NCBI RefSeq assembly: GCF_027580225.2
Contig: NC_073348.2
Coordinates: 30,756,001-30,820,000, forward strand
Reading direction: 5' to 3'
From: Misgurnus anguillicaudatus
Taxonomy: Eukaryota; Chordata; Actinopteri; Cypriniformes; Cobitidae
DNA length: 64,000 nucleotides
The notes beneath the pieces are model-generated. The model saw nothing but the letters and a program-made list of their open reading frames with translations, had not been told where the DNA came from and made no database searches. The translations under genes were made by a program, and so were the position numbers. This document shows positions 590-42,700 of this stretch, one piece after another; position 1 is the stretch's first letter, and every line of letters starts with the position of its first letter.

Positions 590-795
590 CTGCAGGGCTG
601 TGATTTGCAAAGTGCCGTTTTCCATTAGGCTAATGCGATCGTCGTTGCCCAGGATTCTCTGCCCATCTCGCTCCCATTGGATGCTGGGAAGAGGGTTGCC
701 CATCACGTGGCACTGCAATTGAGCAGTGGCGCCTGGTGCGAGCGTCTGATTGGCCGGGCCTTGGCGGATGATGGGGGGGATCCGGTCAGATGGGG
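590..795 (-). CDS. robo3: robo3 exon 9: Ig5 domain, first part
   Basis: The acceptor is ttttttcaccccag|CCCCAT and the donor is CTGCAG|GTACTT. The exon is 206 nt, opens by completing Thr412 and ends in phase 0 after Gln480. It encodes [20 protein letters not shown], Cys440 in [20 protein letters not shown], and [12 protein letters not shown]. There are potential N-glycosylation sites at Asn427 (NQT) and Asn471 (NGT). The partner cysteine of Ig5 is in the next exon, to the left of the window. Confidence 0.94.
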
Positions 796-3700
796 CTGGG
801 GTGAAAAAATGGGAGAGGCGTGGGGCACGAGAGCCAAATTAGCATGTAACCACCATCTCAACCACTCGATTAAATGACACTTGAAAAAGACACATGCATT
901 ATGCTAAATAAGATTCACAAAGTAAAATATAACATTAGCATACCGGTAACCTGTACACAAGTGAGCTGCCAAACAATTCTGTATTTATTTTAATTTAATG
1001 TTGCCTGAAAAATTATTTGAAATGCATGGCTTAACTCATCTGTGCCATCAGCAAAAACCAAATCATTGAATTCACTGAATGTGCAAATTAGTTTGACTGG
1101 CCACTTTTCGAATTACAGTCTGAATGCGCCGCTAATGCGACAGAATAACTGATTCATAATTTGATCAATGCCACAAGCCTCTGGGTATCATTTCATTGAG
1201 CCTTATTGTAGTGCTGCTGTAAAAAAAATTTAAGATGCTATTGCATAGCCGCACAAAGAGGGATTTATTTTCCAAGCATGCAATTTCCACGTTGCAATAT
1301 GCTATAATAGAATTACTTGCATTCAAACTAACTATATTATATTTACTAGTTGTTTGTTGGTAAAGCTGACATTATCTTTATGAAATCATAAACAGTGGTG
1401 CTTTAATGCATGACAGTGCATTTTACATGACAATGCGAAATAATAACAAGGCTACAGTATTTCCGTTGTGATTGCACATGTTTGTATAAATAATTTATTC
1501 GTTCTTGCCATGGAGCTGAAGAGTGTTGTCTATTTACCAACCCAGGGAAAAGTCTAGACATAAATAATTGACAATTCTGTTACCGTCGCATTCTCATTCG
1601 AAATAACAAGAATCAGTCTACATCTCTGGCATTTTCTCCCATTCGCAGTAAGAAAGGTAAAGGCTGTGAGGTCAGAAAGCTGTATCACTTAAACAAACCG
1701 TGTTGTTTTCCTAGAAAGGCGCGAGATTCATTTAAAAACATGTCCTTGCTGCAGTGACCCTGTGAAGTACATACATATATAAGTATGTGTGCCCTTCAAT
1801 AGATCACATTATTATGTATTACATCAGTACATTGCAGCAAACATCAGTCAGATGATGCTCGCTCCCGTATCCATCAGGGTCGTCCATCGTAAAGGCCACG
1901 GGTTTCTGGTAAACAGGATTACATTTCATAGGGATTGTGCTAATATTGGACTAATATTGGTGAAGGTTCTTCTCTGTTTGGTACACGCGTGGGGTGCACA
2001 TAAACAGTTTATCTTGTTACCGGAAGCATGACGGAGTCTGCATATGTTCCTGTGGTTATTTGCATATGACTGCTGCGTCCTGTCCTTTATGATTACGTCG
2101 TCGACACTTCCTGCTGTTCCTTTCATTTGCAAAGGCAGACATTTTTAATTTGGGGAGGCTTTGAAGGCTTTTGATTGTTTTGCTACGCGGGGCAAAGCGT
2201 CAATTTGTTCAAACGCAAATAACAAATGTAACCCGAATCTTTGTGATAACGCCTCGCTGAAATAATTCAATTACATGTACAGTTCTGGACCTTTAATGTA
2301 GTTAGATTGATATTAAAATAGCATTTGAAAGAGCTGGGCGAGGACGACTGTACAAATGTGTGTGTGTGTGTTTTCTAAAAAAAAAAAGGTTAATGAAATT
2401 CACTTACTGCTTTCCACTTCTAGCAGAGCTTTTGTTAAGATGCTGCCCGCCACGCTGATGGCCTGACATATGTAGTACCCAGAATCCTCACTGTGCACGT
2501 CTGTAATGGTCAATTCGCCGCTCAGCGACACAGAGAAACGACCCGACTGTGATGGAGGCTGGCTGGGGAACATTAAGACCTGTACAAACCGACAAATAAT
2601 GTTAAGACATCAAACAGTTAGTAGTGGTTAGTTCAAATAGCTAATGGACTAATTGTAAAGTGTTACCAGTATCTCTTTCATCACTGATAGTCAAGAACTT
2701 CACAGGACACATTTGTGGTTGTATAAATAAAACATCACTGTACATTTAATGTGATATTGATGGCTAATGCTGCGTTCACACCAGCCGTGGTAGAGGCGTC
2801 ACGCACGAGTGATTTCAATGTTAAGTCAATGTGAAGACGCAATGACGTGCGTCTGGAGGTCTCGCGTCACGAATGAGGCGCTTAGCGCGGCGCGGTAGAC
2901 GCGAATCCGCCTCATCCGCGCGTCTAGTTCGTGCGAATGGCGCGAATTCAACGTTGCCGCGGGAAATGCGCAAGTTGAAAAATCTGACCTTTGGCGGAAA
3001 ATCGTGCTGCATTAACCAATCAGTAGCTTGTTCTAGTAGTGTCGTGATTATAGGAAGCGAGCGGAGTTGCAGAAGCCCCTCCCATGACGCGAATTTCCCC
3101 GTGAATGTCTCAATGACTAGAATTTCTCACGCACGAATGAAGCGAGTAAACTCAAAATGTTTAAGTGGCAAACTAGATGCGGTAGACGCGAATTTGACGC
3201 CTCAAACGCGGCTGGTGTAAGAGTCCACACATGGGCCAAACAATAGCTGTGTCATCATCTCAGCTGGTGTTTAAGGGAGGGAAGGGGTCTGATATACAAA
3301 AGACAAGGGTGATGGATCATAAGGAGCCTTCCTCTTGGATGAGGCTGCAACGCTGACAGATGCCCCATTGTTCACACTGGGCAGTGTGTGTCACTGTTTC
3401 ATTTTTTGGGATAATCTGACCCCATCCAAACCCTTTTCTCACATCCCCCCCTCACTGCAGCCCTCTGGCTCTGACCGGACCTATTTAGTTCTGTTATATA
3501 TCTGCTGACCTCAGACAGCGACCACACATACAAGCACACCAACATAAACAAAGAACAGAGACGAGATTAACCAGTTCACGACCCGCGGTACAGCAGATAT
3601 ATGCTCACCTCTGGCCTATGACACATTCGACTTTTTGGGGATAGAAGAGAGGAAAGTGGGAGGAATAAAGGAACTGGCTTCCTTCCTCCGAGCTCTTTAG

Positions 3701-6700
3701 AACAACCAGAGGCTTATATCTTCATTTTTGCTGGGTTTATTAATAGAGACATGAATGTCTTACAGGGCCCAGGGATGAGTTGTATTCCCCTGACTTGTGG
3801 AAACGTACACACACAAGCTCCTGCAGAAATCCCAGAGTTCATTTTCATCCCTTGAATAGCTTGTCTCTTAGTATTTATCTCTCTATTTTTTTTCGACGCT
3901 TTGAGAGGCATAACGCTCATTGGAAGAAAGAGAGTATGTGGCTCCTTTGACTTGAATGCAACTTCACCATTGAATAAAAATGATGACAGTATTCTTTTTC
4001 GTGAGTTTAAAATGCATTGCGATCACTTGCTGTCAAATGCAGATGCAATATAGATTAGTTTATTAAAAACGATATTAAATTTGAACACAAGTCCCTTTGC
4101 TAGCTGAATGGCATTTGCATTAATAAACTAACACGCTGTAGACTTCCTTAAAGGGATAGTTCACTTTAAAAATGAAAATTCCGTCATCATTCACTCATCC
4201 CCATGCTGCTGCAAACCTGCATGAACCTCCTCCCCCTGATGAACACAAAAGAAGATACCCTGATAAATGATGGTAAACACACAGCAGTAAGTGACCCTAG
4301 ACTTCCATTGTAGGAAAAAAATATTTTGGAAGTATTGTGATAGATGGTTTCAGCAGTAACAACATAAACAAGCGGGTGTCGCGGTCCGCACGTAACTTAC
4401 GGTAAACTCCGCTAATAATAAATAACCACATATTACTTTAAACAAAGTTTATTTATATAACAAGCAAAAAAACAACACATAGATTACCTGGGAAACCAAA
4501 ACATTTGTTATTTTCGACGAGGCATTTGTTCAAGAGTTTAGCAACTAGTCAGACCATTAAAAAAACGAAAGCGGAAGTAAAGTTCGGATCCAGACGTGTA
4601 TCTCGTGCGTCCGATGAAACCGTCTATAAATGACTATGAAACATTTCATACGCACACAGTTGACGGTACTCATTAAATTCCATTATATTTTCTATATATT
4701 CCTACTATGGAAGTCTAGGGTCACTTACTGCTGTGTGTTTACCATCATTTCTCAAAATATCTTCTTTTGTGTTCATCAGAAAAAAGAAATGCATACAGGT
4801 TTAGAACAACATGAGGATGAGTAAATGATGACAGAATTTTCATTTTAAAATGAACTATCCCTTTAAAATATTCCTAATTTTTTTCTTCTTTTTAGCCTAT
4901 GGATGATGTCCCCTTCAAGTCATTTAATTTACATTAATATAGATTCGATTACATAAATACACATTTCATCTTTTCTCACACACACAGCAAGATGTGCAAG
5001 ATCACTTTTCTATCAAAAAACAGACATTTTTATTATATACATGTAATTCTATATGACAACAGACAGACAGACACACATACGGACAGTTTTGTGAGCAAAA
5101 GAGCTTTCCGAGAAACCCATGCTCGATGTGAGATCAGCTGGATAATGAAAAATAAATCCTTCAGATTTCCAGGCTGTATAGGCACCTTTGCTGTTTCACA
5201 ATCCTTAAAGGGACAGTTCACACAAAAATTAAAACTTTATCATTATTTACTCAACCTCACGGTATTTGAACAACCAAAAATAAATAAATAAAGTGTTATA
5301 TTTTGTGTTTGCGTGGTTTATGGATAAAAAACACATTATTTTCCACATACCGTCCATTTTTGTACCTCCTGATATTCTGCCTTCCTCAAACGCATTGATT
5401 TTGTACAAAACTCATCGATTTGAAAAGCCCCGTGTCCCTGATTGGCCAGCTAATCTGTTGGTTGTGATTGGCTTGAATACCTCTGACGTCAGTCAAAAAT
5501 GTGACGCTCCTTACCATGTTTGAAAGATTTGGTCACAATGCAATGCTAACAAGGAGTTAACTTACAGGCTTGAGTCAGAAGCGGTAGGAATTATGATAAT
5601 GTTGGGCTTGTCCACGTCAACAGGCCCAGGAAGTAAACTGTTGCCTACAATCCGTTCATTTTTTGTAGTCCAAGAAAATAAATTTATGTTGGAAACGATA
5701 ACTCGCTTCATTGTTTACCTTAGGGTTTGTAATACACACTTAAAGACGAAAGAAAATGTAAAATCGTGAATCGGAGTTGCTCTTTAAACATTATTCAAAA
5801 TCAGAGGAAAGACTTCTGCAAAAAATCTCCATTTGGGTTCTGAAGAACATAGAAAGAAACTGGCGGTTCAAAGAACATAGGGGTGAGTAAATAATAACAA
5901 CATTTAAATTTTTGGGTAAATTATCCATTTAAAGTGTCACTCTGCTCTTATTTAAAGGGAGAGTTTACAAGACATTAATATCATTACAAACCCATATGCT
6001 TTTCCATATGCTGTCGGCTTCCAGTATTTGGAATGACATGATGCTGAGTAAATGATGACAACATTTAAATTTTGGGTTAAACTAATATTTAAAAAATACA
6101 ATAATATCCCACATAACTGTGCATTATTTATGAATACATTTTAGGGGTACAGTGTAAACAACAGTGATTCACAAAAACATTTTTTTTTTCAAAACTATAC
6201 TTCTATTAAATTTTAAACATTTTCTTTTCAAAGTTTAGAAAATGTATTTTACTCACATACTCACTTCCCAAAAGTTGGCCGTGCATTACAGAACAACTCT
6301 CAAGAAAAGTTCATGAAAGTTTTGGCCAGATACTTTGATGTGTTTTGACATGGACTCCGAGGGCTCCCCTTGTGTTGTGTTTCAATGTAGTTTTCTCTTA
6401 CCTGACTGCCTTCTTTCTGCCAGAACACGGCAGGTGGGGGATTTCCCTTTGTGCCACAAAGAAAAGTGACAGTACGGCCCTGGGCAGAGATCTGATCCCG
6501 AGGACGAACCACTATCTGTGGAGGAACTGAAAAAGAAGAGAGAAACAGCAACTCAGTATCCTAACTCCATTTAAGCCATTTATCTTAAAATTTAAACAGT
6601 TTAGCTTTGTCTAAACTTAAACCGCCATCTCCAAAAAAATAGACTGCATACATATTAACACGCCAGTTAAACTGTCATTGTTGATATTGCACACAATGCC

Positions 6701-9700
6701 ATGTTTTAAGCCCACCACGACTGCATGTAAAGTTAAGTCTTGTGTGAGCGCCATACCCACGCAAACACTGTCGTGTGATCTATCAAGATTGTTTAAATTA
6801 AGTCGCGGCTCACATACCAACCCTGACTATATACAGTCAAAACTACATAACACTGACACTTAAATCATAAACAGTGTGGGTTTCCTACGAAAACCATGAC
6901 TAAGACTAATTTACATTCTGTAAGTTATAAATTTGTTTCGACACAAAACGGGTCCACAACCAAAACCCCAAGGTATAATCAAACGTATATCATTTTGAAG
7001 GGGAGTAGCACTGGTTGAGTGAACATAAGAGATAAAAAGCTCAATTATTATGGAAGTCTTTTCTCCTCGGTGCCGCAGAGGTACTTTAAAAACACGATAG
7101 CGCGTCTGATGCGGGTGATGAAGAGCCCTTATCATGTGTGGGTGTATCAAGAGCAAATATACATTTATACATTAGCATCTGGACTAATGTACAATTTCTG
7201 TCCACTAATGAGGGTTCGGCTTTAAAGAAGAACCTCTTAACATCCCAAGTGCATCGTAGGCTGGTCAATGGTTTTGACCGTCGACGCATTTATCTTTTCC
7301 TTGATCCGTTCTCCCTCCCTTTCTCTCTTTAAATCTCTTTGATGAGGCTTTCTTCAGCTGCGGACGTTTGGCTCCTGCCCTTGGTGTGAGTAAGATCAAT
7401 GTTTTTTCTGATGGATGCTAATCTGCTGGTCTAATCTGCCCTAGAGAACCATTATGAGACCTACCACAATTCGATCCTGTGCACCTCCCTGCAGATCTAT
7501 TCACACCAATCGTACATTTTCAAAGTACAGGGTTCCCAAACCTTAGTAAACTTCAAATTCAAAGACCTTTCAAGGACTTTCCAGGTCCAATACCCTCAAT
7601 GTGGGGACACATTTCAAGTGAGAGCAAGGTTACCTTTTAAGATACATTGTTACAGTTCCCTTTCGAGGGAACTCGCGCTGCATCACTGCGGTGACACTTT
7701 GTGGACACCTCCAGGGGTGAGTGCCTCTGAATGTGTTTATCAAATTCAACCAATGGTGGGACTTAACGACAAAGACAGGGTGACGCAGGAGCCAGGAAGT
7801 ATATCGCTATCTGAAATATTGCCAGAGACGGCATTACAGGGACGCAGGAAGAATGGCAAGGGAGACGCAGCGTCTCGATCCCTTCTCAGGGAACAACAGT
7901 TACATATGTAACCCCGAGACGTTTTCATGTGTCAAACACAACTATGCAAAAAAGCATTTTGGTATGAAATCAACATTCGCATACAGAAGATAAAGCATTT
8001 AAAGCGAACAGTTTAGCACGTGTGCTTAAAAAGTCGAGAATTTTTATGATATTATCCTACACTACACAGGGAATAATATGGATTTTTTTCCAGAAAACTT
8101 CTTTCACAAAATAGATTCAAGCACTTTCAATGGCATGTATCTATGTATGATTATTTTCAAAAACTTCCCAGGGCCTTGAATTTTTTTTCCCAGACTCACA
8201 AACTTTCAAGGATTTCAAGGACCTGTGGGAACCCTGCTATTAATTATACTAGTATATGATGATTTACTCATTTATCATGCAACGGGCTACTTTACACTGC
8301 TCAACAAATATAAAAAAAAAATCTCAAATTCCCAATGGTTGTTGGGTTTAGTTGGACCGGTGTGTTGAAACCCTGTTGGAATTGGTTGAAAACCACGTCC
8401 CGAATCCTATACTGGAAACAAACCCTATTCCTTCTAATTGCTGATTTTCATCTTAATACACGTCACTTGTTGTGTTGCTCTTTGTGTAAATTGCTCTTTA
8501 GCGAAGACAAACGTCCACATTAGTAGTTGCAGTGTGATAGATGATGCTAAATTTCCCAACACCCCCCCACACAATGAGCGTGGAATACAAACTAAACTGA
8601 TGATGATCCTTCAGATGTTTGAGCTCAGCTGGGGCTGATGGGTATCGATTATTTCCGTGCTATTGCCCTTTATCAGGCGCCTTTGGATGTGCAATGCTGT
8701 CACCTTTAACCTTCACCAGCTAATTGATTTCTCATCCTCCTTCCCACTCCCTGGCAATTCTTTTTGTTTCACACACGATTAGAGTGACACGCCGGCTCTG
8801 ACCACACACATTTGTTGTCAGGAAGCACTTTCTCCTTTAGCTCACCTCAAATTTTTCACTAATTCATCAAGATGAAAGGCCGGTCGCATTTGTAACTACT
8901 AATGCGGCCACCAAACAAAAGCACTGTATTTCCTTCAATTTAGCCTCTGTTCACTGCTTTATTACAAAAGTCATTTGACACAAGCAAAAGACACAATTTG
9001 AATCAATGCATCTCCCCCTGATCAATTTACCGATCGGCTCCCTGCCTGCCTGCTGGCTTTTTTTGGAGATTTAGTCGTAGTGTGGGATGCATCACAGCTT
9101 GGAGGCGACGGCATGCTGAAACAGAACAAGGCCCGATAGGGTGTCTGGCCGCTGGGGTCACAAGGTTGCTGTCCGGAGGTTAAGCAGAAGCCCTACCCTG
9201 ACCCTAGAGGTCAAATCTGAAACACATCCCTTGTCTATATAATCTGGAAAACTATTCTCCATTCCTCTGACCATCTCTGCCAATAAGCCTGTATTGACCA
9301 TATCACTTTTAGTTGGGCTAATATAAGGACTGAAATACTCTACATCGCATAACAGTTTATATCCATAAATGTCATTGGACTGTTCTCGGACTGCAGGTTC
9401 CTGGGTTAAAGGGATAGTTTACCGAAAAATTTAACTTATGTCATCATTTACTCACAACCTTAAGTTGTACCAAGCAAACCTGTGTTATTTTTTGTTTTGC
9501 TGAATACAAATGAAGATATTTTGATGAATGTTTGTAACCAAGCAAATTTGGGGCACCATTGACTTCTATATTAGGAAAAATAATACCATGGAAGCAGTGG
9601 CGGCCGGTGACTTCTTTTTTTCGAGGGCGCTTGACGCAAAGTTCGTCACAACATGTATGTAGCCCGTCATGTGTGTGGTTCCTTTTTTCAAAATATGTGT

Positions 9701-12700: not shown

Positions 12701-15700
12701 TTTACATCCGACACTAAATATAAAAAATATATAAATAATACTTTTCACTGAGTTAAAGTGTGCTGTCAAGTTGCTATTTTGCTTATATATGAAGAGTTTG
12801 GTTCCAAAACGAAATAAATCCATTTTGAATAATTTCGGTAAAAATGTGTTTTCTACACCAAAAAAGTGACAAGATAAAAACCACTATTTTCTGTTACAAA
12901 CTTTCACATAGCATCTTTAGGTTATAATAACATTAAAAATTCAAATCCATAATTAGATTTTCAAAGATTTATTATAAAAACAAATTATTTTCCCGCAAAA
13001 TGCAATAAATACGGTTTTTTAAAAATGCTATAGATCTATTGCATCAATATATAAATGTGCATTCATCTTTGCCATGTTATATTCATTTAGTTGAATAGTG
13101 ATTTACAATAATTAAAAAAATAAATATTATTGTCATTCATCAAAACACTTACTTTGTCATATTAAGAACACTGTCATTGCTGCTGTCATCCTTGGGACGT
13201 CGTCGCTGAACTTTTTTGACAATGATCAGCTGTAAAATGTTTTGGTCCTGCTCGATTTTCGTTGACTTCGAGTAAAATAATGTAAATTTTTTCATAAGAT
13301 CCCCTGGGGTCAGTGTGTTAGCACTGCCGGCATTTTTCCTTCTCCCGGGGGCCTCTCGGATAAATTTTTCGATTATGAGATCTCACGTTTTTCCTCGCGA
13401 CAGAAAACCACCCTAAGTTTATCAATGCCATCAAAATTACTATTTAGTTTTTGTTTGTTTATTGACCACGAAGTACAAAGTAGATAAGAAAAACTAGGAT
13501 TTTGTGTGTATTCAAAGTGCCGACATTATTATTTACAATGCGTGGAATGATTTGTTGAGCGGATTAATTGCATTCTACAGAGAAGGAGGACTGATGTTTA
13601 TCACGTTTTGGAAAAAAGGGAGAAAAGATGACAGAATAACACGGCAGATATCAGATTTTCCGTAAAATGAAGAATCTACTTTTTAATACTGACCTAATAC
13701 AATGATTTTGGTGGTAACTAATAAAAAAAGGCGTTTATCGCGTTTTGGAACCAAACTCTTGTACTTCTCAATAAGATTAGGAAAGTCATGAAATAACATT
13801 ATTAAAAGTATATTTTTCAAGATGCTAAATTTCCAACTTTTCAACTACTTACAATAAAAGAGCTCTGTTTGAAAACGCAGTAAGCTAATTTACTAACATA
13901 CTGACGTCTTAGGCAGTAACCACTGTAACTAATATGAAACCTTATAATTAACTGCTTTAAAAATGCTTACATGTGCTGAAATCTTGGGCTTTTACACCCA
14001 CCACAAAATTGCATGAAAAGTGTTGGTGTGCATATGTAAATGATATCTGATGGTGCCTAGAATTTACCTTGGAACAAAACTTAAAGTTCTGAATTTTCAG
14101 CCCAAGAAAGTCTGGGTAGTTTTCTCAAACTTTCAATTAAATGTTAGTTATTCAAGTCACAAGTAACAAAAGAGAAAATAAGAGCATTTTTATCTCTTTA
14201 AAAGAAGCAGAACGTCCTTGTTTCCCTCTGAAAACACGTTCTTACTTTTTGCAGTGTCTGTCTGGTTATGACTGATGTGCTCAGTCAGCATCAGATACAG
14301 TCATTTCCATCTCTGTGTTTTTCCTTGACAGAAATAACGCAACTGGAAATTACTTCTCGGTCAGAACTCCACACATACGCACTTCATTATTGTGCCTCCA
14401 GTTAAATTCGGTTCTTTAAAGAAAAACAAAGCAAGTGGTATAAAGTTCAAGGTCTTAAAAAAGGCAAAGCCTGTGCGTGTTTGTTTTATGCTATTTGTGA
14501 AGACTTTTAAGGGAAAATCGATTGTAGGCTTGGTGACTCTGCTGAGCTTCAAAGCCAAACCCAAGTGGTTTCTACTGATGCCGTACAATACGAAGTAGTT
14601 CTAGTTGACTGAGTAGCCCCCTATAAATGAAAAAATGAGATGGGTATATCGGCTGTTTTCCTAGACTGCAATGAGATTAGATGAGATTAAAAGTGTCTTG
14701 CTTCTCAGACAATTTTCCTGGGGAAAAACTTAAATCTCAACAATCTCTTAAGCTGCGCTGAGACTTTCTAAGCTTGTAAGGCCTGCATTCAAATGCAAAA
14801 TAATATCGACAAAAGCTAAAAAATAAACAAAAAATAAGTGTGTATGCTATCTAATATAAACATGTAGGTCCATAATGCACAAAATTAATACAAAATCTAT
14901 AATGTAGCTTTCTTCCATTATGAAAAACATCAGTTCCCAAAATCTGGTATTACATCCATTGATTCAATATGACAAAAAATCAGCTCTTTGGTCTTAGATA
15001 TTCACATCCAATGATGCATTGTGGGAATACAATAAGATTTCCAGTCAGGTTTACACTGATAGTAGTCTGGTTTTGGAGCAATCTCACCAATTCTTTCCTC
15101 TTCAGCTTCTTTGTAATTCGATTAAGCTTTCCTCATTGTGAACTGAATAAAGAAAGGTCATTCTTGTTCTGCTGTAGAAAATAACCTTTGGTAATTTTAA
15201 TCAATAAAGGAAATCCACTAGCGTATCCAGTGCAATAAGACTCTGACACTGAAAATGCAGGTATTTGATACTTCAATCTAAAAAGTGAAAGCATGAGTTA
15301 CCTTTCTGGACATATAAATCAATAAGTGCAACTAAACCAAACGCTGCATAGTAACTTTTGGTATTGAGAATTTTCTTCCTTGTATTCACTTGACTGTCAT
15401 CCCCCTAAATTTTTTTAACCCCGTCACAAACCAGTAGCAATCCCGGAAACATCTGAAAACTTCACAGCAACATGCATGCATAGAAAATGAAATGGAATGG
15501 TACTTACAAGATGGACCCGCTATAATGGAGGTGATGATTGAGAAAGAGAGAAAAAAAATTAAAAAAAAATGAGATGAGTGGATATTGTTTTGCATTTAAA
15601 ACATTGAAGATGATAGAAAAAGAGTGATTAAAGAAATTTCGGTGTGGGATGGAGCGACAATGAACGGCAGTGACATGAGGTAGAGGACATGAGAAGGAAG

Positions 15701-18700
15701 ATATCAGAGTATGCTTTAGTTGGTGTTAGTAAAGTTAGTAAGTGTGAGTTAGTTCATGCTGCTTTGACATGTTGGAATTACAACAATGGAAGGATGACTA
15801 CTTTGAGCGGTTTATGTCCCAAGACATATTAGACATATTATTGCAGCATGTGTCTTCAAATGCTCAAGTAGCAAAAGTTGTTAATGACAAACATCACTAC
15901 TTTATTATATTTACATTACATTAACATTTATGCATTTACATCTACGCTCTGCACTACTGCAATTTATACCACAATGCTTTGTTCTGTTGAATGCATTATT
16001 CTTTATTCTGACACTTCGTGTCGAGCCGCTTAACCACCTTGGTTGTGCATTATTTTCAAATAATTTAATGGCCCGTTGTCAATAAAAAAGCACAACTATT
16101 CATATCTATCGACATTGGTAGATGTCATTCTACGTAAGCCTTAATAAGTTTGAATATCGGTATCGGCACAGATATTTTATATCGCTGCATGCAAAAATAT
16201 AGTATAGTATAGTACTGTACTGTAAAGTTCAGTATAGCAATGTAATGTAATGTAATGTAATGTAATGTAATGTAATGTAATGTAATGTAATGTAATGTAA
16301 TTTAATTAAATTAAATTAAATTAAATTTAATTTAATTTAATTTAATTTAATTTAATTTAATTTAATTTAATTTAATTTAATTTAATTTAATTTAATTTAA
16401 TTTAATTTAATTTAATTTTACCACAGGGCTGTTGAATGCTTTATTCTGTCAAATGCTTTATTATTTTTTCTGACGCTTTGTGTCGAGCCGCTTTACCACC
16501 TTGGTTGTGCATTATTTTTAAATAAAAAATGGCCCGTTGTCAATTATTCCTTACATAACAATTTAAACAATAAGTAAAAAGCACAACTATTCATATCTAT
16601 CGCACTGCTCATTCTAAGTAAGTCTAAATAAGTTAGAATATCGGTATCGGCACAGATATTTTATATCGTTGCATGCCAAAATATGGTATAGTATAGTATA
16701 GTATAGTACAGTACAGTACAGTATAGTACAGCAAATTAAATTAAATTAAATTATTTTTATAAATTTATGCACAAATATTTTAGCCAATAATCAGTATCAG
16801 TCAATAGGGCTGGGCAAAAAATAATAATTTTTCGATTAATCGTGTTTTTTCCCCGTGGTTGATTCAAAATCGATTCTCACATGCCACAAATCAATTTTTG
16901 TCCAATTTTATTTCCGCAAACATTGAACGTAAGATTAACGTTAATCTAATTACTAGTCTTCTCCACTAGATGTCACCCTTTTTTGCCATGCGCGATGTTA
17001 CCAAGGAGCGAGAGGCGAGCCTGTCATTCATTCATTCGGTCTATGTTCTAATATATTATAATATGATATTCTACATAATCTATATTCATTGAGCTGAATC
17101 AAGAATCGAGTATAAAAACAGAGTCAAGAATTGGAATCGAAAATCGGATCGAGAATCGAATCAATTTGATAGCTTGTAAATCGAAATCGATGAAAATTTG
17201 ATTTTCAGAATTTCGGCAGATATCAGACTAAATAATCGCGTATCGGTATTGGTGAAAATTTTTTAATATTGGTGCATCTCTAAATATAGTATATTATAGT
17301 ATAGTATAGCATAACATAATATAATATATTACTCTAGTCTGAAGTATGCGGGACTAAAGTGTTTTTACATCGCTGTGCTAATAATATTTCAGCTTCACTC
17401 ACACGATAAAACATTTTCCATAAGCTGTCAGGTGAAATCGTTCACAGCAAGCGCTCTGCTATATAAACATCTATTAAATGTGTAGAATATTCTTAATGTG
17501 CGCGTGTTCCTGAGCCCACAGTCATGTTTTATAGAGCAAGATGTGCCTTCAACCAGATGGAATTATGTTAATTGTATCTGGCAGCTTTAAATAAATGGCT
17601 GTTGCCATAGCACTTGGCTCCTATAATCAGGGAAATGCAAGGCCAGCATGACAGCACACAAAAACTCAAACTAATAGACTTGGTTAAGTGTGTAAAAAAG
17701 ATGCTAAAGTCGAGTAAATACTGTATAATAGAATTATTATCAAAGCTGTCAGATGTTTAGTGTGTGTGTGCACGTTTTAAAAAGAAGTACTGAGCTATGC
17801 AGCATCTGCGTGTCCGTAACTCACCGTGGACTTGAAGCGTTCCGGATGCTTCCGCTTTCCCGACGCTGTTTTCTGATAAACAGGTGTACGTGCCTTCATC
17901 TTCAGCCTTCACCTGAGTCAGACGCAGACTGTTTTCGGTACGTATCTCAAACCTGAGATGAAACGCAAAGTTTTTGTGTTTGTAAGTTGGAGCCTATTGT
18001 TCTAAGCCAGCTGCTTTAACAAAGTTCAGCTATAGTTTTTTGTGTGGATTCATCATATTTTTAGTGCTTCAGTGTGAGCAACACATTTGAAAAGAGTTGA
18101 AGACATTGCATTACATTAAAGGTGCTATATATGATTTTGCTAGCATCAACTAAATGCTATTGATAGTCAATGTCAGCCATCCCAAAGTGAGCAAATTTGT
18201 GTCCGACCTTCCCCGAGGCAGTTCTCCTTCTTCTTTCCTCCAGCGTATGGTTGGAGTCGGGTCTCCCTGAACCTCGCACTGGAAATCCACCGTGTCATCA
18301 GCAAGGACCACTTGATTTACAGGCCTGCGTACAAACATGGGCCGCTCTGCGGGAGAGAGAGCATCAGAGACACATGAGTGAGAGAGAGTATGAAGAAGAG
18401 GGAGCGAGAGAGAGGAACATCAAAAGAAAACCCACCAAACACTACTAGCTCAGCAGGGTCGCTGTCTTTCTCTCCGACCATATTAGTGCCGACACAAACA
18501 TACATTCCCGCGTCGCTCTTCCGTGTGTTGGAGATCATCAGCTTCCCGCCTCGTATCTGTGAAGCACATGTATGTCTCAGTGGTATGCATTTATAACACA
18601 ACAGACACTAAAAAAGAAATTCATCCCCATAGGAAGCCAAATATCCTCTGATGTTTTATGAACATGGTTCCTGGGCTTTCGAAGACAAACAGTTCAACAA

Positions 18701-21700
18701 ATAACAACAAATACAAGCCTGGCTGTTTATGAAGCACTTGACACAGAGATGACGGCCATTCTGATATATTTACAATGTGCTGTTATAGCCAATTCAGTCG
18801 AGTGGCTGATAAGAGAGTCATACAGGTAGGAGGGTAATGCATAAAACAAAGAGACGTTGTTTTTAAAAGTGTTTGAAGTGTCCATATTTATGCGAGTTCA
18901 TGGAGGACCTGTTTTATTTTGCAATTTTATATACAGGGTTTCCACACCTTAGTTAACTTCTTTCCAGGTCCAATACCTTCAAATTCAAGTTTGACTAAAT
19001 TTGGGGACACATTTCAAGTGAGAGCAAGGTTACATTGTGTTACCTTTTAAGATACATTGTTACCATTCTCTATCAAGGGAACTCGCGCTGCGACACGGCG
19101 GTGAAACTTTGGGGATGCCTCCAGGGGTAAGTGTGTCTGAATGTGTCAAATTCAACCAATGGTGAGGCTTAACGACAAAGACAGGGTGATGCGGGAGCCA
19201 GGAAGTATATCGCTATATGAAATATTGTCAAAGACGGCATTACAGGGACGCAGGAAGTATGGCAAGGGAGACGCAGCGTCTATCAAATCCAAAAAACTAT
19301 CCAAACAGTCAACTATCCAAAAAAGCATTTTGGTATGAATCAACATTTGCATACAGAAGATACAAGCATTTAAAATGAACAGTTTAGCATGTGTGGTTAA
19401 AAAGACGTGAATTTTTATTATATTATCCTACACTACACAGGAAATAATGTGGATTTTTTTTCCAGAAACCTTCTTACATAAAATAGATTCAAGCAAGTTC
19501 AATAACCTGTATCTATGCATGTATATTTTCAAAAACTTCCCAGGGCATATAATTTTTCCCAGATTCACAAACTTTCAAGGATTTCTAGGACCCGTGGGAA
19601 CCCTGTATATAAAAACAATGTACGCCAATCCGCTTGATCATATCTATTGGAATATCTGGTCCAATCTTTCGAGCATTTCAAATTTCTACAGCCATTTATG
19701 AGCACTGTTTATTCATATCATGCATTTAAGCTAAGCTTTTATAAACTCATATGGTACACTTCATTCCCAAGGCACACAGCATCCCGGACACCAATATTTT
19801 AATGATTTTTAAAAGATTTTCAGTAGGGAGATACTAGGATGGTGATTTTCCAGTATTTTATTAAGAGCACTTACACACAGAGGTAAATAAAGCATTACAC
19901 ATTGGGAAAGAGATGATTTGAATTGAATCTGGATTGATTCTGAAATAAGAAAAAAAACACAAAGAACAGGAACGAGAAATGTTGTGGGTCAATATAGTGC
20001 AGGTGGGGAAAAAAAACTCACTGTTATCCTCTCATCCTTATCATTCACTTTCACGTTGTTCCTCTTCCAGGAGATGGTTGGTTCTGGGTGGCCTCGTGGA
20101 GGGATGCACTCCATCACTGCCGGTTCTCCTGCCGCAACCACCACATCACTGGGGGTCTGACGGAAATCATCCCGGAGAACTGAGGAAATAAGAGTGCAGA
20201 AGAGCAAATAATAAGATAATCTGGTGTATATTAACCAGTGAAAATGCATTTTAGAATATTATTTATTGCCTTTTGTTAAGATTTTTCTGGTTTAATTTGT
20301 TTGCATTGTTCTCCAACCTCTCCCCTGGTCCTAATTTGCTCACCGTCCATGTCGGCTTTATAAATAATGCAACGTTTCTTCTAATGCACGACAATGAATA
20401 ATTAAACCAGTCAGACGCTGACAAAAATCCCACAATTTCTTAAACAGCCTACTGTTATTCATACATACACAAACTGCCTAAACACAGAAGGATAACCCAA
20501 GACAAATCACGTGATAGACACGAGAGCACACAAATACACACACAGCAACGCAAGCAATAACCACCTGTGCAAATATCCTTCAATTGACCTTCCTGCTCCA
20601 CTGGGGCTGATGAAATCAGCTGACCTCTCAATCTGGATTTCCATTTTATTGCCCCTTATCAGATTCCTTAGTGCCGCGAATACTTTAATCCGACCAGCGC
20701 CTCTATCAACCCCACAGTTCTCCACTAAATCGTTCTGCAGCAATTGGTGTTTGCGCCCCAGAGCAAAAGGGTTGCGTTTAGATGGGATGTATGAAGGGGA
20801 CGGCTTCGATATTGCACTGGATCTATGCCAAACGTGAACCCAACCGATTTCAAAATCGCAATACCATACCCAGAGCTCAGACGCCAATTTAATCCACTGA
20901 AATGGGAGCCCTGTTTTGGAGAGCCAATTCTCCTCATAGCCAGAGGTAACAGACTGAAGGTAAACACTGAAGAAGGCACCAGACATTAAATATTGCCTGA
21001 AGAAAGCCCGCTTGGCTTTTTGTTACCTTGATAAATCAGTAATTGTGCAGATTCGACATAGCAAACTGTGCTGGGATCTTTATTCATTTCCATCAGCAAT
21101 ATCTGGAGTGCAGCAGGGCATTCAGGGTCCGGGTCAGTAGGTCTTATTTTTTATAAATGTAAATATGCCAAATGTAAATGTAGTTCCCTCATCTGAATCG
21201 CCTTGACAATGTTTCTTTGTCATTTGCTCTTTATTTCCAATCTCTTATCGTTCTTTTCACCCAAACCTTTAAATTCTGAGCCAACAGAAGTGACAGCGAC
21301 GTGATAACAGTCTGCAGGCAATAATTTTTTTCTCTTTATCTCTCTGCCTTTCTCTCTCTCTCACTTTGCCCACCTTATCAAACTCACAAACTTTGAGAGT
21401 TTAGTGAACTTTTGTTTAAACTTTAACAGGAATGGAAATCAGACCAGAAGTTGAGCTATAATTTGCATATCAATGATTTATTAATTAGACTGAAATGATG
21501 GAGTAAAATGCTAAATAATGAATCACAGGGTTCCCACACCTTAGTTAACTTTAAATTCAAGGACCTTTCAAGGACTTTTCATGTCCAATATCCTCAAATT
21601 CAAGGATGGGGACACATTTCAAGTGAGAGCAAGGTTACATTGTGTTACCTTTTAAGATATATTGTTACAGTTCCCTTTCAAGGGAACTCGCGCTGTGTCA

Positions 21701-39700: not shown

Positions 39701-42700
39701 TGCTGCTTTTCATTCCAAGTGCCAGAACATGGGGACTATTATGTCTCGCAAATATCTTGGAGCAGATGGTGAAATACTCGAGCAGCTCCGTTGACAATAC
39801 CAGTTAAGGTCAGCCGATCTGTAGCCCACCGAGAAACAATTCTGATACATGAGTGTACAAATCGCATTATCTTAACTAACACGCCGTCACTTTATGGTCA
39901 CGTGACGAAAACATAATGTTGTGGAAGCATAATGAAATTGTCAATAATCTAATGACCGAAATCAAATCCCGCCACATCAGCATTTAATTAGCGTGTATCA
40001 GATACAAAAAAACTCCTGCTGTTAGAACCTGGAGCTATTCCACGAAAAACACTGCCGTTTTTTAAAACCCAACATCTGTCACCTGGAAGCAGCCAGCAAT
40101 GCGCTTCTCTCATGCCTATTTCTGGGGTGAATTTATCTCTCATACTAGCTGCCATCCATCTACATTAATAGCCCAAATCAGATTACCTCCTCTAAAACTA
40201 ACAATGACCTCAGTGCTTTCCTCTATCCAGGGACGATGGTTATGGCCCACTGCAGCCGGCGCAAGACTAAACAAGATAGAGTGCAAACGGAGGGGAGGGG
40301 GAAAGATGAGCAGAGGAGGACAAAATGGGTAAGAGCTTATAAGAGTAAGAGATAGGGCGATGCGGAAATCTCCAGCAGGAGAAATTGAGCTAGAACGAGG
40401 GAATGGAAAAAAGATTGGAGTACAAATGAGCCGACTTACTTGCGACCTCCAAGGAGGCATTGCGGCTGACGGCCTCGCCCAAGTAATTCCTGGCCACGCA
40501 CACGTACACCCCTTCGTCGGGCTTGCTGCGTCTTCCGTGAACGATCCGGAGGAAGAAGAGGGAGCCGCTGGGGAGCAGCATGCGGTGGGAGCGCGGATCC
40601 TCGCGGTCTGTTTCAACGCGTTCGCCGTCCTTGTACCACTCCACCATTGGGGTCGGTCTACCTTCTGCTTTACAGTTCAAAGTGGCGGGTTCGCCTTTAG
40701 ATACGATTAGGTCTGAGGGGTGTTCGACGATTCGTGGGGCGGCATCCTCCAGCCTGGGACGAGAACCTGAAAGAGAGTAAATGGTTATCATGAGTGTAAG
40801 TTAGTTACACTAATAGTGTATTAATCAGGTGCAAGATAGGAGTTCTGCCCACAGTGAAACTCACACTCCAGTTACACATTACTGTATGTTATATTTGATC
40901 TGATTGGCTGTGGTAATGATTTTGTTTACTATTTGTGTTTACAGACAAATTTTCTTGCCTCCGGAAATGTGTTGCATCATACCTGGTTATGACCTGCATG
41001 AATAAATGTATAAATTTTGCTAAAAACATAAACATTCATGTATTTGGAAGATGGTTTTATCCAAAGCGACTTACAGCGTACTACAAGTAGAGGTGTAAAT
41101 TGGACAGTTCATTACGATATGATACAATATCGATTTTTTCCAACAGTGGTGCAATATTTGCCGATACATCAAACCAACATGATCTCACAAAGTTCTGTGG
41201 TGTAGTCACGGAATATTTTGCTCATTTATCCGTGTCATTGTCACGGAGCTCTGCATTTTTCCATGTCCGTACCACAGACTTTCTTTTCCGTGTCAGTATT
41301 ACATATTGGTAACTAAATTGTTTTTACTATTTTTAAACCATTTTCGCGTGGGTTTGGGGTTAGATTTGGGGATTGGGATAGGATGTCACTTTAACTATTG
41401 GTTTATATAATTGTTCTCTGGATTTTTAAACAATTGTCGCCTGATGTTAGGGTTAGAGTTGGGTTTGGTTAGGATGTCACTTTATGTAACAGAAAGTCGT
41501 TCTAACCCCAAACCTACTACTTGAAAATGGTAAGAAAATAGGAAAAACAATTGAGTAACCAATACGTGAAACTAACACGGAAAAATGCGGAGATCCGTAA
41601 CAATGACACGGATAAATTAACAAAATATTTCGTGACTATAACACGGAAATTCGTGAGATCAGGTTGCATCAATGCAATTACGATTCGATTAATTAGTCAA
41701 AATGTTCTATTATGTGCCTTTTTACAAATGCAACCAAAATATATAACATGAATATTTAATACAAATCTTTGCAAATGGCACAATCTCTGTCCCAATTGGA
41801 ACATTTACAACAACAAACTAACAAAAACTACACTTTTTTAAATAAAAAAATAAATAATGAGGAAAAAATGTCACCCAAAATGACAACAGTTAAAGTCTTT
41901 CCGTATTTTGTGTCAAAATGTGCAATAGTGACAATCACTTAGTTAGTTGTAGAATTTTTTTTACTTTGCTCACTTGCTGACAGTAGCAGAAGAAAATAAA
42001 CGGAAATGTGCGCTTGTGGTGGAAATGCATATGATTGCATAAAGAAATGAGAATGCAGAGTGCGTCAAAATCATATAACATCATATCGACATTTTATGTG
42101 TGGCATCGATGCATCGTATAGTTAGAAATTTAATCGGCGTACTGTATTAATCCATATCAATGTATTTTTACACCCCTAACTACAAGATATAAAGATGTAA
42201 GATGTTTAAAATTCATTTCATATAAAAATCCTTTTCACTGCTTAAACAATGCTCTACCAGTTAAACTACTAGTTGAAAATGTAGAAAATTTCATTTTTCA
42301 CCAAAAAATGCTTTTAATTCCATTTTAATACCAGAGGATCGCCAAGAAACAGCATGGCCCTGAAACACTTGCTATGCCAGTTTCAGGTCATCATTCATGC
42401 CGCTGTTGACAAGAATGGAAAACACAATCTCGGCTGTGTAAAATTAAAGTATTATACATATGGATTGCTCTTACGTACGTCACATCGATTGGCAGTGTAA
42501 AAATTACACGCTTTAAATTCAACAGCCATCAAATAAAACAGAAAAGCAACCGCAGGTGGAAGGGAGGAATGTGTATATATAATTTGTCTTCTGTTTTAAA
42601 ATGCATGTAAACTCCTGCCAAATGCTATAGGAGTTTTGCTTTGCACAGATGTTGGGGGAAGTGAGAGAGAAAGTGGGGGGGTCAGTCAGTGGTATGGTAA

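Follow-up and report, generated by a model that had tools for sequence, protein, structure and literature searches.

We found a 12-nt sequence in intron 6 of the robo3 gene of the loach Misgurnus anguillicaudatus that is very probably a genuine cassette microexon, which makes Robo3 a member of the Robo1/Robo2 exon-6b (e6b) family. The proof is comparative: the protein sequences of other vertebrates, rather than the splice sites, argue for the reality of this exon. The window, the whole stretch of 64,000 nt analysed here, is placed on C12 of the 1.12-Gb assembly, and its minus strand carries the exons for Ig1 through part of Ig5 of a Robo receptor. The following features are given by their positions in the window.

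40440..40766, minus strand: robo3 Ig1 exon, named e2 here
20022..20179, minus strand: robo3 exon 3 (Ig2)
18436..18556, minus strand: robo3 exon 4 (Ig2)
18208..18346, minus strand: robo3 exon 5 (Ig3)
17825..17952, minus strand: robo3 exon 6, end of Ig3, with the terminus ...CACG and then gtgagt
15520..15719, minus strand: upstream flank of e6b, where YCAY (NOVA-like) motifs occur 14 times; suggestive (P of 0.06-0.08 in local shuffles, downstream flank included)
15520..15565, minus strand: 3' splice site of e6b (tag) and pyrimidine-rich tract, read from the sequence; score 5.5
15508..15519, minus strand: very probable robo3 microexon e6b, CGGGTCCATCTT, 12 nt, phase 1; from sequence, frame and the Robo3 inserts of other vertebrates
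15502..15507, minus strand: 5' splice site of e6b, gtaagt, read from the sequence; matrix score 6.2, average for the gene
15471..15480, minus strand: TGCATGCATG, RBFOX-like double site, 27 nt downstream of the e6b donor; suggestive, presumably for RBFOX
6402..6526, minus strand: robo3 exon 7, start of Ig4, with the first bases TTCCTCCACAG
2408..2579, minus strand: robo3 exon 8 (Ig4)
590..795, minus strand: robo3 exon 9 (part of Ig5)

Joining the robo3 exons gives a chain of 462 residues when the microexon is included and 458 when it is not, and the reading frame is open in both forms. The joined protein minus the insert matches the Robo3 isoform X2 of Paramisgurnus dabryanus (99% over 100%; identity judged by eye). 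In our tree, which leaves out loach robo1 and in which two loach rows extend over just a third of the columns, the Paramisgurnus protein lies within the ray-finned Robo3 clade (99/97), separate from the ROBO1/ROBO2 clade (100/99). Two alike copies of a dispersed repeat were seen by eye in robo3 introns (about 7520-8240 and 18930-19600), and intron 6 also contains, some 0.7 kb away from the microexon, a 36-copy AATTT array (16239-16418, 98% matches).

On the minus strand, CGGGTCCATCTT at 15508-15519 is directly preceded by ...cctccattatag and directly followed by gtaagtacc. A split codon spans the junction, as the single base G closes exon 6 and TT CCT CCA opens exon 7. By conceptual translation, the Ig3-Ig4 linker reads LQVH-V-PPQ if e6b is skipped and LQVH-AGPSF-PPQ if it is included. 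The initial annotation had placed a frame-preserving 12-nt exon here in intron 6, with AGPSF replacing V, and all of this was confirmed, on the minus strand. The candidate has the features of the exon 6b family: 12 nt, a multiple of three, between exons 6 and 7, in phase 1.

We then investigated the linkers of annotated Robo proteins. Three protein searches, each with a query containing the insert and each represented by its best 120 rows, gave 294 distinct rows; these are representatives of 90% clusters, some species occupy many rows, and the annotated isoforms are partly model predictions. An insert at the Ig3-Ig4 junction is found in 54 of the 180 non-mammalian Robo3 rows listed and in none of the 98 mammalian ROBO3 rows listed, which are all placental and are annotated cluster representatives, not intron DNA; because of the insert-bearing queries, the restriction to the best 120, the use of cluster representatives and the species with multiple rows, these are neither inclusion frequencies nor species counts. 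Outside the 180 are, besides the mammalian rows, P0121 (a camel hemicentin), P0266 (ROBO2) and 14 rows assigned to robo3b. Rows P0210 and P0218 read V at the linker. The rows listed include no marsupial, monotreme or bird ROBO3, and no lamprey, hagfish or invertebrate. Insert-bearing rows among those listed belong to teleosts, gar, coelacanth, lungfish, shark, skate, frogs, lizards, snakes and turtles.

In the first search, 37 of the best 120 rows have three to five extra residues and 83 read V. The second search added 112 new ROBO3 rows (P0122-P0233), ten of them, all non-mammalian, with the insert: the frogs Rhinophrynus and Nanorana, the lizards Podarcis, Anolis and Sceloporus, the snakes Liasis (two rows) and Pantherophis, the tortoise Chelonoidis and the coelacanth. 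Non-mammals without the insert in this search are Lepidochelys, Dermochelys, Euleptes and Ambystoma, and the other 98 of the 112 are the placental rows. The third search added inserts in a shark, a skate, a lungfish, a sea turtle and a goby, together with many rows lacking it, including Xenopus, alligator, tuatara and bichir. Among the non-mammalian Robo3 rows listed, the usual form of the insert is VGP[S/F][L/M]. The 52 five-residue inserts have V at position 1 in 50 cases, G at position 2 in 50, P at position 3 in 43 and S or F at position 4 in all 52. The A at residue 1 in the window is rare, being shared with one of these 52 (Cyprinodon, AGRSL). VMSL in P0100 (Pempheris) implies 9 nt and GDGPFM in P0111 (Betta) implies 15 nt, indicating that in some fishes the insert has changed in length by whole codons. 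In P0003, an unnamed protein of Merluccius merluccius, the Ig3-Ig4 stretch occurs twice in one chain, perhaps through an assembly or annotation error.

Both forms, with and without the insert, exist in eight species (Chelmon, Epinephelus moara, Salarias, Scleropages, Latimeria, Liasis, Pantherophis and Anolis carolinensis), as expected of a cassette exon. The insert is also present in two rows labelled 'lgn' (P0058 and P0119), and three others (P0085, P0106 and P0275) lack it. We infer that the 'lgn' rows are assembled sequencing reads. The two insert-bearing contigs, of 5,468 and 5,584 bp, hold whole ORFs of 1,408 and 1,396 aa; since such long ORFs are intact within about 5.5 kb, whereas exons 2-9 of the window span 40 kb, these contigs imply spliced RNA.

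We also searched for the paralogues in the same genome, with coordinates given on C12 or C24. The Ig1 exon has five matches, two on C12 (robo3 itself and a 53%-identical robo4-like exon) and three on C24. The robo4-like exon, whose name we infer, is at C12:30,704,633-30,704,866, separated from the window's low end by about 51 kb and on the strand opposite to robo3. Judging from exon sequences, C24 carries robo2 at 34.5-34.7 Mb, robo1 at 34.9 Mb on the minus strand (assigned by similarity only) and, at 17.9 Mb, a second robo3. We scanned the introns between exons 6 and 7 of these paralogues for 9-, 12- or 15-nt exons with good splice sites and obtained one candidate each inside the robo2 and robo1 introns, the remaining matches being just the end of exon 7.

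Near C24:34,685,210: loach robo2 e6b-like exon, CTCGCCCTGTCG, phase 1
Near C24:34,866,700, minus strand: loach robo1 e6b-like exon, TTGTGTCTG, phase 1

The loach robo2 candidate differs at two of 12 bases from mouse Robo2 e6b, TTCGCCCTGTTG, which, like the TTGGG start of mouse Robo1 e6b, was taken from primer sequences of Johnson et al. (PMC6687390). Its insert peptide, ARPVA, is identical to that of Sarcophilus ROBO2.

The second robo3 gene (robo3b) occupies C24:17,889,818-17,924,158, with an exon 6-7 intron of 11.3 kb, in which strict, relaxed and motif scans revealed no convincing e6b candidate. The 14 rows assigned to the robo3b clade comprise 12 with VGPFL or VGPLL and two without an insert; only Sebastes, Gymnodraco and Sinocyclocheilus are in the tree, and the others were assigned through their linker sequence. 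The NCBI name 'roundabout homolog 2' was rejected for the percomorph VGPFL/VGPLL rows, as Sebastes and Gymnodraco join the loach gene at C24:17.9 Mb and Sinocyclocheilus (100/99), outside the ROBO1/2 clade. The records of this name (P0267, P0271, P0272, P0277, P0278, P0281-P0284, P0286, P0288 and P0289) look like teleost robo3b, with P0267 and P0289 placed by the tree and the rest by the shared linker.

The flanks of the three loach exons were then compared for putative splicing control. Within 50 nt of the exon, there are six YCAY motifs in robo3, seven in robo2 and five in robo1. The background means are 1.4-1.7 (1.4 for robo3), and counts this high occur at no more than 0.9% of control positions. 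Within 200 nt, robo3 e6b has 17 and the eight other robo3 exons have at most 11. Local dinucleotide shuffles reach the robo3 count at frequencies of 0.076 (100 nt) and 0.06 (200 nt) and the robo1 count at 0.034 and 0.045, and at robo2, where a CA repeat lies close by, they show no signal (0.999 and 0.692). The enrichment is weakened by these shuffles, and YCAY clusters were rejected as proof of NOVA control. In the 200 nt that follow each of the nine robo3 exons, TGCATG occurs solely in TGCATGCATG, and we take this double site to be an RBFOX site; no TGCATG exists within 200 nt of the robo1 and robo2 e6b-like exons. The NOVA-like and RBFOX-like motifs around robo3 e6b are suggestive only. SRRM4 acts through UGC located shortly before the 3' splice site. 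As no TGC lies in the 50 nt before the e6b acceptor (one lies within 100 nt), SRRM4-type control was rejected. Robo3 e6b resembles the SRRM3/4-dependent neuronal microexons, which are in frame, 3-27 nt long and alter the protein surface, but differs from them in lacking this upstream TGC.

At the Robo1/2 e6b junction, proteins named Robo3 have an insert of equal length and phase, with a similar peptide, in species ranging from cartilaginous fishes to turtles. Robo3 e6b was most likely present in the jawed-vertebrate ancestor, and e6b is probably older than the split of Robo1, Robo2 and Robo3. The latter is the simplest reading because the Robo3 inserts share their junction with the e6b-like exons of loach robo1 and robo2. 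Several Robo3 forks of the tree are open, and as shark and skate, coelacanth and lungfish stand in an open fork, the Robo3 identity of the shark and skate proteins follows their database name. The tree includes two placental Robo3 proteins; both lack e6b, and their branch is long (0.44 changes per column). The proposal that the microexon predates the paralogue split and was lost in mammalian Robo3 gains support from the shark-to-turtle inserts, from the robo1 and robo2 e6b-like exons and from the 98 placental rows listed, all without it. Alternatively, the Robo3 microexon might have been gained separately from that of Robo1/2, after the split. The peptides are indeed unlike (VGPFL versus ARPVA or VRPVA), Robo1 has 9 nt, a few residues are too little to prove homology, and all sampled Robos are post-duplication. 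This convergence is nevertheless unlikely, given that all three paralogues of one genome have 9-12 nt in the same intron and phase, that P at position 3 is common to Robo2 and Robo3, and that all three have YCAY-rich flanks relative to the intron background.

The known Robo1/Robo2 microexon lies at this same exon 6/7 junction, as the initial annotation stated; it is e6b, with 9 nt in Robo1 and 12 nt in Robo2 according to passages of PMC6687390. Mouse Robo2 e6b (PMC6687390, PMC4930328) is like robo3 e6b in being 12 nt long and in phase 1, between exons 6 and 7, in the Ig3-Ig4 linker. Its peptide, VRPVA (from primers), has P at position 3 as in Robo3, and both exons have YCAY flanks; the peptide is otherwise different from the VGPFL-like one of Robo3, and the NOVA control and guidance effect come from experiments on mouse Robo2. 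Mouse Robo1 e6b (PMC6687390) shares the junction and phase, and its TTGGG start (V-G) is near the V-G of Robo3, but it is 9 rather than 12 nt long. Robo3.1/Robo3.2 and Robo3 var1/var2 are likewise alternative forms of a single gene, and 3.1/3.2 govern midline crossing in mouse; unlike in the e6b forms, their differences are located at the C-terminus and the N-terminus, not in the Ig3-Ig4 linker (passages of PMC3507651).

It could be argued that e6b is spliced in without any functional effect, as tolerated linker noise. The insert is not uniform in length (Pempheris has VMSL and Betta GDGPFM), nor are residues 3 and 5 constant, but V-G-P-S/F is kept from shark to turtle, and the comparable change in Robo1 and Robo2 alters signalling and guidance (PMC6687390); we consider linker noise improbable. 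In the passages of that paper, the mouse Robo1/2 e6b isoforms show comparable SLIT2 binding, Robo1 with e6b gives more CDC42 inhibition, more RAC1 activation and more block of crossing than Robo1 without it, and in Robo2 the effect of e6b inclusion is seen only without exon 21.

The pair of splice sites had been described as strong, which overstates it. The AG acceptor and the GTAAGT donor are present, but the acceptor is the weakest of the nine exons compared and the donor is average. Scored with approximate vertebrate matrices, the e6b acceptor has 5.5, the lowest of the nine, and the donor 6.2, against 4.9-11.0 in the other eight exons. This low acceptor might mean that an exon real in relatives has decayed in this fish, which would also fit the first residue A instead of V and the linker V of the best-matching annotated protein, Paramisgurnus X2, and of the Cyprinus, Sinocyclocheilus and Triplophysa rows listed. 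Against decay, the frame, AG, GTAAGT and pyrimidine tract are all intact, the cyprinid Puntigrus has a VGPSL insert, and the rows are cluster representatives, other members of which may differ. Weak splice sites are usual for regulated exons, and decay appears quite improbable.

Simulated introns of the same length (300, first-order) contain on average 1.28 equally good pairs enclosing 3-27 nt, of which 0.48 enclose a length divisible by three. In the real 11.3-kb intron 6 there are two such pairs, which enclose 12 and 11 nt; across the minus strand of the entire window there are 13, one being the 3' end of exon 7. Because simulated introns yield such pairs, the 12-nt sequence alone is no evidence beyond chance, and splice-site strength was rejected as proof of an exon. 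That this is one of those chance pairs, never spliced in, is nonetheless extremely unlikely, as its 12 nt encode, in the right length and phase, the linker insert of 54 of the 180 non-mammalian Robo3 rows listed.

Taking the 12 nt as a microexon of Robo3, we propose how it may act. Robo3 e6b would be switched during neural development. NOVA-type proteins might repress it through YCAY motifs, just as mouse Robo1/2 e6b is repressed by NOVA via YCAY in both introns (PMC6687390), and the downstream RBFOX-type site might promote its inclusion. Inclusion would lengthen the Ig3-Ig4 hinge; by analogy with the reports on Robo1/2, Slit binding of non-mammalian Robo3 would be unchanged and the repulsive signal stronger. 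Mammalian Robo3 is reported to have lost Slit binding, and Slits are reported to bind non-mammalian vertebrate Robo3 (passages of PMC8670310, which cites Zelina 2014, and PMC12308364). The ancestor of placental mammals would have lost e6b from ROBO3.

In the titles, abstract starts and passages of the literature searched, no report of Robo3 e6b was found; the zebrafish microexon tables in the supplements of PMC7821500 may list the exon, and 'robo' is absent from the main text of PMC12626424. The claim that no Robo3 microexon had been reported holds for this literature, but database isoform models already include the insert. What is new is therefore its recognition, its evolutionary depth and its absence from the placental rows.

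The occurrence of e6b in shark, fish, frog and reptile Robo3 and in none of the 98 placental rows listed suggests that the e6b switch and the Slit function of Robo3 went together. Tentatively, a single ancestral vertebrate Robo may have had one NOVA/RBFOX-controlled e6b switch that passed to every Slit-binding paralogue, and mammalian Robo3 may have dropped it in the interval in which it lost Slit binding. On this possible history, e6b would have been removed from mammalian Robo3 because tuning of Slit repulsion is useless in a Slit-deaf receptor, and early vertebrates would have switched all Robos with one splicing programme. Studies of fish or frog robo3 might have covered just one of two ectodomain forms. 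The role of Robo3 changed in evolution, and the switch known from Robo1 and Robo2 was apparently once common to all three receptors.
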